In this document: positions 52,121-54,918 of the stretch, in pieces
Layout: every line of letters begins with the position of its first letter
How positions within the stretch are numbered: the first letter of the stretch is position 1
IMG/VR virus record: IMGVR_UViG_3300021957_000050
Span: 1-54,918 of that record
Strand: one strand, 5' to 3'
DNA length: 54,918 nucleotides
Source of the DNA: a virus
Made by a program: the position numbers and the translations under genes
The notes under the pieces: model-generated
What the model was told of the DNA's origin: nothing
The model's database searches: none
The model's input: the letters and a program-made list of their open reading frames with translations, nothing else

Positions 52121-52912
52121 ATGGCACATTGTGTAGTAAGTTTAAGTGGTGGAATGGATAGCAGCACCCTATTGTTAAGAGCTATCGAGAAGTATGATAC
52201 TGTAACAGGTATCTCATTTGATTACGGTCAAAAACATAGAGTTGAACTTGAAAGAGCTCAACAATTGATTGATTACCTTGCAAGTAAAGGTCACAAAGTA
52301 AATTATCGTCAAATTAAACTAGACGGCTTAGTAGACCTATTAGATTCAGCATTAACTGAAGGCGGTAAGGATGTACCTGAAGGGCATTATGAGCAAGATA
52401 ATATGAAAGAAACAGTTGTTCCTAACAGAAACAAAATGTTTGCTTCTATTACACAAGCAGTAGCATTATCTGTAGCAAATAAAACAGAAGATGTCTGTGA
52501 TATTGCTTTAGGAATTCATGCTGGAGATCATGCAGTTTATCCTGATTGTAGACAAGAATTTAGAGATGCAGATGACGCAGCTTTTAGAATTGGTAATTGG
52601 GAGGCAGATAGAGTAGGGTATTTCACACCTTATTTAGATACTGATAAGTTTGGTATTTTACAAGATGGATTAAATTTATGTGAGGTTCTAGATTTAGATT
52701 TTGATGAAGTCTATAAAAGAACAAATACATCATATAAACCTTACCCATCAGGAAATAGCGACTATAAGTCAGCATCTTCAGTAGAACGTATTGAAGCATT
52801 TATAGCATTAGGGAGACCTGATCCAGTACAGTACGAAGATGAAAGCGGTCCTGTATCTTACGAAGTAGCAAAAGCATCAGTTGTAAAAGTACTTGCAGGT
52901 TATGGCAATTAG
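52121..52912 (+). CDS. queC: QueC-like 7-cyano-7-deazaguanine synthase lacking the zinc-binding cysteines
   Basis: This 263-residue protein has the ATP-pyrophosphatase loop S9-G-G-M-D-S-S15, FDYGQKHRVELE, VVPNRNKMFASITQAVALS, LGIHAGDHAVYPDCRQEF and YFTPYLDTDKFGI, all QueC signatures. QueC makes preQ0 from 7-carboxy-7-deazaguanine (CDG) by way of the amide (ADG), using ATP and ammonia. The usual C-terminal zinc site (TCY ... CGxCxxC) is replaced: S204, D214, S217 and S220 stand where the four cysteines belong, while the flanking TSY and VERIEAFIALGRPDP are kept. The protein may fold without zinc or stop at another product such as ADG. In phages these genes usually feed 7-deazaguanine modification of DNA. 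It overlaps the following small gene by 11 bases. Confidence 0.88.
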   Translation: MAHCVVSLSGGMDSSTLLLRAIEKYDTVTGISFDYGQKHRVELERAQQLIDYLASKGHKVNYRQIKLDGLVDLLDSALTEGGKDVPEGHYEQDNMKETVVPNRNKMFASITQAVALSVANKTEDVCDIALGIHAGDHAVYPDCRQEFRDADDAAFRIGNWEADRVGYFTPYLDTDKFGILQDGLNLCEVLDLDFDEVYKRTNTSYKPYPSGNSDYKSASSVERIEAFIALGRPDPVQYEDESGPVSYEVAKASVVKVLAGYGN

Positions 52913-53063: not shown

Positions 53064-53738
53064 TTGCAAAAACAATTAAAAATAGTATTTTGTCTACCAG
53101 GACGAACTTTTTCAAATAATTTTTTGACTAGTTGGAGTAATCTTCTACAGTACTTACCTAAGTATGGAATTACTCCAATTCTGTCAAATAGTTATAGTCC
53201 ACTACTATACTACGTTAGAAATCAATGTTTAGGAGGCGCATCAGTAAAAGGAAAAAATCAAATACCTTTTGATGGCCAAGTAGATTATGATTACATAATG
53301 TGGATAGATTCAGATATGGTATTTGAAGTTAATGACTTTATTAAGTTACTTAACATGAATAAGGATATTGCTTCCGGAATATATAAAACTCAGAACAATT
53401 CTAACTACGCTACAGTAGAAAAATGGAATAAAGAGTACTATGCAAAAAACGGTTCTTTTGAATTTTTAGATGATAAGTTAATAAATAAAAGAACTAAACC
53501 ATTTAAAGTTGAGTATACTGGATTTGGTTGGATGCTAATTAAAAAAGGTGTATTTGAGTCACTAGAGTATCCATGGTTTCAACCTCTTTGGGAAGAATTT
53601 AAGGTAGGAGATACCTCATTTAAAGAATTTACTATGGAAGATGTAGCATTCTGTAGAATGATAACAAAAAAAGGTTACGATATTTATGTCGATCCAACTT
53701 TAATAATAGGACATGAGAAAATGTTGGTTCTTAAATAA
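53064..53738 (+). CDS. Glycosyltransferase family 2-like protein, TTG start
   Basis: The protein has 224 residues. No ATG or GTG precedes the conserved N-terminus LKIVFCLPGRTFSNNFLTSW, and the first in-frame candidate is TTG at 53064, so a TTG start is chosen. The core contains YDYIMWIDSDMVFE with D82-x-D84, the GT-A metal/nucleotide site, and VEYTGFGWMLIKKGVFESL followed by FTMEDVAFCRMITKKGYDIYVDPTLIIGH, matching the acceptor-site ED and terminal His of GT2 enzymes. It lies inside the deazaguanine gene group, between queC and queD. It may glycosylate a base, a protein or a host glycan; only context hints at DNA. Confidence 0.7.
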   Translation: MQKQLKIVFCLPGRTFSNNFLTSWSNLLQYLPKYGITPILSNSYSPLLYYVRNQCLGGASVKGKNQIPFDGQVDYDYIMWIDSDMVFEVNDFIKLLNMNKDIASGIYKTQNNSNYATVEKWNKEYYAKNGSFEFLDDKLINKRTKPFKVEYTGFGWMLIKKGVFESLEYPWFQPLWEEFKVGDTSFKEFTMEDVAFCRMITKKGYDIYVDPTLIIGHEKMLVLK

Positions 53739-54052: not shown

Positions 54053-54517
54053 ATGGGAAAATTTCAATCAACAAAAGTATTTGACGGATACTCTACTGTG
54101 TTTCGTCAATGGAAAGCAACAACTACACACTGCTCTAAATTACACGGATATGGAGTATCATTTAAACTCTGGTTTGAAGGTGAACTAGATGAAAGAAACT
54201 GGGTATGGGACTTCGGAGGTATGAAAAGAGCAAAAGGAACTATCGATGGTATGTCTCCAAAAGCATGGATGGATTATATGTTCGACCATACTTTTATAGT
54301 AGCAGAAGACGATCCGTATAAAGAATCATTTATGAAAATGGATGAAGCAGGAGTGGCACAAGTAAGAGTAATACCAGCAACTGGTGCTGAGAGCTTTGCA
54401 AAATTTATATTAGAAAAAGTAGCTCCCTTTATAAGTGAAGAAACTGAAGGTAGAGTTAAAGTAACAAAAGTAGAATTTAGAGAACATAGTAAAAATACAG
54501 CATCATATGTCGCATAA
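54053..54517 (+). CDS. queD: QueD/PTPS-like 6-carboxytetrahydropterin synthase homolog with altered metal site
   Basis: This 154-residue protein has the pattern THCSKLHGYGVSFKLWFEG, then DERNWVWDFGGMK, and MDYMFDHTFIVAEDDP, the T-fold pterin-enzyme order with catalytic Cys (C27) and the DH pair later. In E. coli QueD, zinc is held by H16, H31 and H33. Here H31 is present, but the HGH motif reads HGY (Y33) and the first position has no His (FRQWKA). H26 next to C27 could substitute. QueD makes 6-carboxytetrahydropterin for QueE. The gene starts 10 bases after the membrane protein and overlaps queE by 11 bases, so the two are probably translated together. Confidence 0.8.
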   Translation: MGKFQSTKVFDGYSTVFRQWKATTTHCSKLHGYGVSFKLWFEGELDERNWVWDFGGMKRAKGTIDGMSPKAWMDYMFDHTFIVAEDDPYKESFMKMDEAGVAQVRVIPATGAESFAKFILEKVAPFISEETEGRVKVTKVEFREHSKNTASYVA

Positions 54518-54918
54518 ACAATTAAAAAGAATAGAAGATTACGATAAGAATTTACCTATCGTAGAAATTTATACAGCAGTACAGTCTGAAGGGTCTAGAG
54601 CAGGGTATCCAACAGTAGTGATTAGAACAACAGGATGTACACATAGATGTTACTTCGGTGAAGGAGGATGGTGTGATAGTTGGTATACAAGTATACATCC
54701 GGAAAAAGGACATTTTAACTTTAAAGACATTATTGCAATGTATGAGAAAAATCCTCATATAAAAGAGATGATGTTAACTGGAGGTTCCCCTACTATGCAT
54801 CCAGCTCTAGTAAATGAATTAACACATTTTGCACATGAAAATAATATTTTTATTACTATCGAAACTGAAGGATCTCATTTCCTCCCCACTGACTATCCTA
54901 TTAATTTGCTATCTATCT
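54507..54918 (+). CDS. queE: QueE-like 7-carboxy-7-deazaguanine synthase (radical SAM), 3'-truncated by window end
   Basis: The frame is open from the ATG at 54507 to the end of the window (137 residues seen). It begins MSHKQLKRIEDYDKNLPIVE and continues with IYTAVQSEGSRAGYPTVVIRTTGCTHRC, the QueE opening that binds substrate and the cluster. The cluster cysteines are C44, C48 and C56, a CX3CX7C spacing; canonical radical SAM is CX3CX2C and some QueE enzymes use CX14CX2C. MMLTGGSPTMHP is the SAM-binding GGEP-like motif (GGSP here). QueE ring-contracts 6-carboxytetrahydropterin to CDG, the QueC substrate. The start overlaps queD by 11 bases. Confidence 0.88.
   Translation, partial: MSHKQLKRIEDYDKNLPIVEIYTAVQSEGSRAGYPTVVIRTTGCTHRCYFGEGGWCDSWYTSIHPEKGHFNFKDIIAMYEKNPHIKEMMLTGGSPTMHPALVNELTHFAHENNIFITIETEGSHFLPTDYPINLLSI

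Follow-up and report, generated by a model that had tools for sequence, protein, structure and literature searches.

A widespread class of QueC proteins without zinc cysteines in phages, archaea and bacteria

A phage QueC without the four zinc cysteines

The window, that is, the whole 54,918-base stretch of DNA analysed here, is a virus record from a marine phage, apparently a fragment, whose end falls inside QueE. An open reading frame at 52121-52912, intact over 263 codons from an ATG start, encodes a homolog of QueC, one of the few acid-to-nitrile enzymes, and is accompanied by the genes for two further enzymes of the pathway:

52121..52912, + strand: QueC (7-cyano-7-deazaguanine synthase) without zinc cysteines, 263 aa (Pfam PF06508, E 4e-38)
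52145..52162, + strand: ATP loop SGGMDS, residues 9-14 (SGG.DS invariant in the clade)
52223..52246, + strand: YGQKHRVE, residues 35-42, the catalytic YxQxHxxE motif (alignment; motif per PMC13329287)
52418..52432, + strand: VPNRN, residues 100-104, the catalytic VPxRN motif (alignment; motif per PMC13329287)
52538..52549, + strand: YPDC substrate motif, residues 140-143, cysteine retained (alignment; motif per PMC13329287)
52730..52732, + strand: S204, in place of zinc Cys 1 (alignment)
52760..52762, + strand: D214, in place of zinc Cys 2 (alignment)
52769..52771, + strand: S217, in place of zinc Cys 3 (alignment)
52778..52780, + strand: S220, in place of zinc Cys 4 (alignment)
54053..54517, + strand: QueD (6-carboxytetrahydropterin synthase), an upstream pathway enzyme (Pfam PTPS, E 3e-14; PHROG 2389 QueD-like, E 1e-39)
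54507..54917, + strand: QueE (7-carboxy-7-deazaguanine synthase), which makes the QueC substrate CDG, cut by the contig end (Radical_SAM; TIGR03365 QueE, E 8e-14)

The protein passes the Pfam QueC cut-off, which places it within the PF06508/QueC-fold family, and matches the QueC-like PHROG 1550 (E 2.5e-42). It falls outside the NCBIfam equivalog TIGR00364, scoring 131.9 bits against a cut-off of 150.3, and the cellular cysteine-less QueC proteins described below score 114-131 bits on the same model. The truncated QueE is, as expected for such an ORF, below the cut-off of TIGR03365. Between QueC and QueD lies a TTG-start ORF (53064-53738) matching PHROG 1574, whose function is unassigned (E 2e-66), with a weak match to a glycosyltransferase family.

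The Cys motif is regarded as the hallmark of the QueC family, and zinc as required for its function (PMC13329287, July 2026). The motif, C(x)8CxxCxxC, is absent from the window protein, and alignment confirmed the reading of an earlier note that S204, D214, S217 and S220 stand at the four ligand positions; the protein is therefore classed as a zinc-less variant and not as a canonical member. S204 and D214 are spaced x9 where the motif has x8, and some relatives have a far longer loop here: the stretch at residues 205-213 (52733-52759) ranges from 9 to about 20 residues within the lineage, between invariant flanks. The same note had seen the ATP loop and the residues around the former ligands as preserved, and this holds for all of the published catalytic residues in the alignment (Y35-Q37-H39-E42, V100-P101-R103-N104, Y140-P-D-C143 and Y205). 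The last of these, which adjoins the Cys1 position, is the counterpart of E. coli Y189, an essential residue whose alanine mutant is dead (PMC13329287). Lys176 is invariant in the clade and is taken for the counterpart of E. coli K165.

Predicted structure

An AlphaFold2 model made with 79 sequences has a mean pLDDT of 92.5 and a pTM of 0.91, and blocks within residues 201-230, around the former zinc site, average 91-97. The top PDB match to the model is QueC 3bl5 (Z 19.0, rmsd 2.9, 191 residues), spanning residues 1-233 of the model, the former zinc region among them, followed by Cap9 (Z 18.4) and QueC 2pg3 (Z 18.3). The modelled fold is the known QueC fold, and the new metal-free fold once suggested for this protein finds no support. 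The window protein shares with canonical QueC (PF06508 cluster 1; E. coli, B. subtilis 3BL5 and Erwinia carotovora 2PG3) the fold, ATP loop, YxQxHxxE, VPxRN and YPDC motifs, the Tyr and Lys residues and the pathway context, but differs in having no C(x)8CxxCxxC motif and in carrying a helical C-terminal extension. Cap9 (type IV CBASS, 9NTO) and QatC (9Y01) also have the QueC fold but are protein-modifying defence enzymes that keep the cysteine zinc motif (PMC13329287).

Conservation and gene neighborhood in the phage lineage

A scan of IMG/VR returned at least 598 relatives, the best 80 of which were read; with the addition of Flavobacterium phage immuto and of viral contigs assigned to metagenome-assembled genomes (MAGs), the phage-lineage set came to 89 sequences. 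All 89 have S/D/S/S at the four positions. Across the 87 sequences in which codons were compared, S204 is written with six serine codons drawn from both Ser boxes while the amino acid is constant, and every scored residue from 202 to 223 is invariant. Constant amino acids despite synonymous codon changes indicate strong purifying selection at these sites, and leave no room for the sequencing error that the earlier note had named as a possible refutation. Among 281 aligned QueC sequences including the query, 170 have none of the four cysteines, 109 have all four, one has a single Cys and the last breaks off ahead of the site, a split beyond what chance would give. The cysteines are lost, the replacement residues are under strong purifying selection, and the catalytic motifs and fold are retained. 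Contigs L087-L093 of the phage lineage were binned into MAGs labelled Flavobacteriaceae, Pelagibacter and even Woesearchaeota, which reflects contamination or infected cells.

The named member of the lineage is Flavobacterium phage immuto_2-6A (NC_055915), whose QueC is 75% identical over aligned columns and also S/D/S/S; it differs by 18 residues inserted around position 60 and by its longer S204-D214 loop. Its genome encodes FolE, QueD, QueE, DpdA, a formyltransferase and QueF. Formylated dPreQ1 is reported for immuto DNA, and dCDG is also reported for phages (NAR 2023).

Each of 20 long phage-lineage records carries one QueC, and QueF is matched in 14, above cut-off in 13. In the QueF-bearing contigs the order, with small swaps, is QueC ... 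QueD-QueE-PRT-FolE-hydrolase-DpdA-formyltransferase-TMK-QueF. These contigs include the 92%-identical relatives of the window (L006, L008 and L011), which also encode FolE, QueD, QueE, DpdA and the formyltransferase; QueD and QueE in the window, with FolE, DpdA and QueF in its nearest relatives, thus supply the pathway and a preQ0 user. The phage QueF aligns with the solved Vibrio QueF 3bp1 (E 1e-47) across the NC..QPDW site, and the NC..QPDW and RRGGLDINP motifs are kept in all 13 sequences read. Phosphoribosyltransferase-like and pyrophosphohydrolase-like (PHROG 671) genes, at L001:31931-32326 and L001:33370-33894 with counterparts in L167-L186, are part of the preQ0 cluster in almost every long contig.

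Neither QueF nor the formyltransferase was found in six of the 20 long contigs, one of them 119 kb. These (L171, L176, L179, L180, L182 and L185) form a sub-lineage with cysteine-less QueC whose DNA base probably differs, and L182 carries, upstream of its QueC, a DpdA gene that differs.

A second variation concerns QueD, which reads HC...HGY in the window lineage, in Thiotrichales and in other phages with cysteine-less QueC, as opposed to LHGH in most QueDs (54053-54517 in the window; L095, L096, L307, L310, L318 and L319). The Tyr replaces the third zinc His, presumably His33 in E. coli numbering. Poseidoniales L105 QueD keeps HGH, and Cellulophaga phi47:1 has an HGY QueD alongside a Cys-bearing QueC.

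The cysteine-less form in cells

Cellular homologs were sought in 84,980 species genomes. The nearest (∼42-56% identical) also have no zinc cysteines and come from Poseidoniales archaea, from Pirellulaceae and related planctomycetes, and from Cysteiniphilum, Facilibium, another Thiotrichales isolate, Neomarinimicrobiota and TMED161; the idea of a phage-only oddity is rejected on this ground. Thiotrichales share S/D/S/S with the phages, while the archaea and planctomycetes read S/x/[ST]/D, with D220 in 63/63, S or T at 217 in 63/63, and position 214 free (S, H, N, D or A). One planctomycete, L143, retains only Cys1 (CTTD). Cysteine-less QueC was found in 16 of 19 low-scoring Thermoplasmatota sampled, and in none of 80 further proteins, of which 20 were Planctomycetota with low scores and 60 were the top scorers of Planctomycetota and Thermoplasmatota. 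A group of divergent, low-scoring PF06508 proteins from Planctomycetota (L259-L278) has a CxxCESC-type motif, is distant from QueC in the phylogeny and may be another functional cluster.

Each of 38 genomes checked for QueC copies, most of the cellular set being MAGs, has one full-length QueC; in 35 of them (34 without any of the four Cys, plus L143) that single copy is the cysteine-less form. A second, Cys-bearing QueC was sought in these genomes and in the 20 long phage records, and none was found, other matches being short, weak, partial PP-loop hits. TGT is present in 32 of the 35, and QueF is above cut-off in 23 of 24 bacterial genomes, TMED161 being the exception, and in none of 11 archaeal genomes. 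The latter is as expected, because the archaeal transglycosylase inserts preQ0 itself. One Poseidoniales (Thalassarchaeaceae) operon runs FolE-QueE-QueC-SelR-QueD, and in Thiotrichales L095 the QueD and QueE genes point away from QueC. From the genes they carry, these cells most likely use the cysteine-less protein to produce preQ0. The earlier note had held that close cellular homologs which also lack the cysteines and make preQ0 normally would undo its proposal of an altered phage enzyme; the absence of cysteines in homologs from ordinary queuosine/archaeosine genomes is borne out, and the preQ0 production is read from their genes.

At least two independent losses

The four cysteines are intact (CCCC) in 16 of 19 other named phage QueCs, and are absent from those of R5C (ATDT), RHEph06 (ATDS) and Pseudomonas Iggyvirus Pa-V (SVNN). 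In a QueC phylogeny from which the columns of the zinc motif were left out, these three proteins group in a clade of their own adjoining Cys-bearing QueCs. A single clade of all cysteine-less sequences was rejected (p-AU 1e-118), which rules out a single origin, while the main cysteine-less clade taken alone was not (p 0.36). QueC has thus lost its cysteines independently at least twice, and the count is two or three changes depending on where the main clade is placed relative to four Cys-bearing sequences from Bacteroidales and Spirochaetia. R5C encodes QueF and DpdA beside its cysteine-less QueC. Iggyvirus (Iggy) DNA is described as containing dPreQ0 (PMC11008142, which cites Olsen 2023).

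Discussion

The window protein is quite probably an ordinary two-step, ATP-dependent QueC that converts CDG to preQ0 and folds without the structural zinc. In the proposed reaction, ATP would activate the CDG carboxylate and ammonia would give the amide (ADG), after which a second ATP would activate the amide and departure of AMP would leave the nitrile (preQ0). In canonical QueC, the loop near the C terminus that carries the essential Tyr (Y189 in E. coli) is taken to be fixed near the active site by a ZnCys4 knot. In the cysteine-less proteins, hydrogen bonds among the former ligand positions, occupied by one acid and by hydroxyl groups, may instead hold the Y205 loop in place: S/D/S/S in phages and Thiotrichales, S/x/[ST]/D in archaea and planctomycetes, and A/T/D/[ST] in the second loss. 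The recurrence of one acid (an amide in Iggyvirus) in independent lineages fits this proposal without proving it. In the phages, QueF would act next on the preQ0, with DpdA and the formyltransferase after it, to yield a 7-deazaguanine base in the DNA. That cysteine-less QueC is the sole copy in many ocean archaea and planctomycetes suggests that zinc is probably not needed for QueC chemistry. We infer preQ0 synthesis, the absence of the metal, the hydrogen-bond network and the DNA product. Counting against this reading are the TIGR00364 score below cut-off, the six of 20 long contigs without QueF, and the published statement that QueC requires zinc (PMC13329287).

The earlier note had raised the idea of a changed product. 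In this reading, QueC would stop at the amide (ADG), or at CDG, and a different base would enter the DNA. Phage DNAs bearing dADG are known, and no nitrile-demanding enzyme was found in the QueF-less sub-lineage. QueF, however, needs nitrile preQ0, so its intact catalytic motifs in most long contigs, the nearest relatives of the window included, do not support an amide-stopping enzyme. The host itself could supply preQ0, so phage QueF is no proof that the cysteine-less QueC makes it. The changed product is further opposed by the presence of QueF in R5C, an independent cysteine-less phage, and by the use of the cysteine-less protein as sole QueC in cells with TGT and QueF. Campylobacter phage CPt10, in which all dG is reported to be replaced by dADG (PMC8306585), has a QueC that keeps CCCC in the alignment, so cysteine loss is not the mark of an ADG maker, and Iggyvirus (SVNN) is reported with dPreQ0. 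Taken together, we consider a changed product quite improbable. Repurposing as a protein deazaguanylase of the Cap9 or QatC kind, or for counter-defence, is very improbable, although the rank of Cap9 as second-best structural match could be cited for it: both of those enzymes retain their zinc motifs, cells use the cysteine-less protein as sole QueC, and the gene belongs to a preQ0/DpdA cluster. Neither CD-NTase nor QatB is annotated there or beside the immuto QueC.

It is also unlikely that the site binds a metal through oxygen or His ligands, whether Asp, Ser and Thr at the former cysteine positions or the nearby H133-x-x-D136-H137. In every cysteine-less lineage, an acid or an amide does occupy one or more of the former ligand positions, and H133, D136 and H137 are conserved. 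But one carboxylate with Ser/Thr makes a poor metal site, and the variability of position 214 in cells means that it is not a constrained ligand there. The GxHxGDH motif is equally present in Cys-bearing sisters (L160-L166), so H133, D136 and H137 are not a replacement for the zinc site. Finally, a decaying gene or sequencing error has nothing in its favor and can practically be dismissed, given the same residues in 89/89 relatives, the synonymous codon variation and the intact frame.

The preferred reading, a zinc-independent preQ0 synthase, agrees in part with the earlier note, which saw a lineage that dispenses with zinc. The joint loss of four ligands in a stable lineage does point to zinc independence of QueC; as a statement about the lineage it was too broad, since FolE retains its Zn ligands (C..HH and C) in the phage lineage, as it does in Poseidoniales L105, and zinc loss across the whole pathway is not supported. 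A further idea, tentative and on balance doubtful, is that a zinc-sparing 7-deazaguanine pathway, combining QueC cysteine loss with the QueD His33-to-Tyr change, arose at least twice, and that its main form has spread between ocean phages, Thiotrichales, archaea and planctomycetes, with the scarcity of zinc in seawater as a possible driver. If so, QueC would form its nitrile without requiring a metal in this position.

A literature search, largely of papers outside the subscription journals, found no report of a cysteine-less QueC. What appears new is a widespread zinc-less class, its activity and metal content both predicted, that stands against the view of zinc as a requirement. The pattern of a structural Cys zinc site lost with function kept has a parallel in ribosomal protein S4, with its zinc and non-zinc forms, and in GluRS with and without a zinc-binding motif (PMC3087516, PMC4381286); these proteins are unrelated to QueC, whose site instead lies beside the enzyme active site. 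Annotation by the Cys motif or by equivalog cut-offs can miss probably genuine preQ0 synthases, and a natural zinc-less class makes the role of the QueC zinc testable, as a structural clamp or as part of catalysis.
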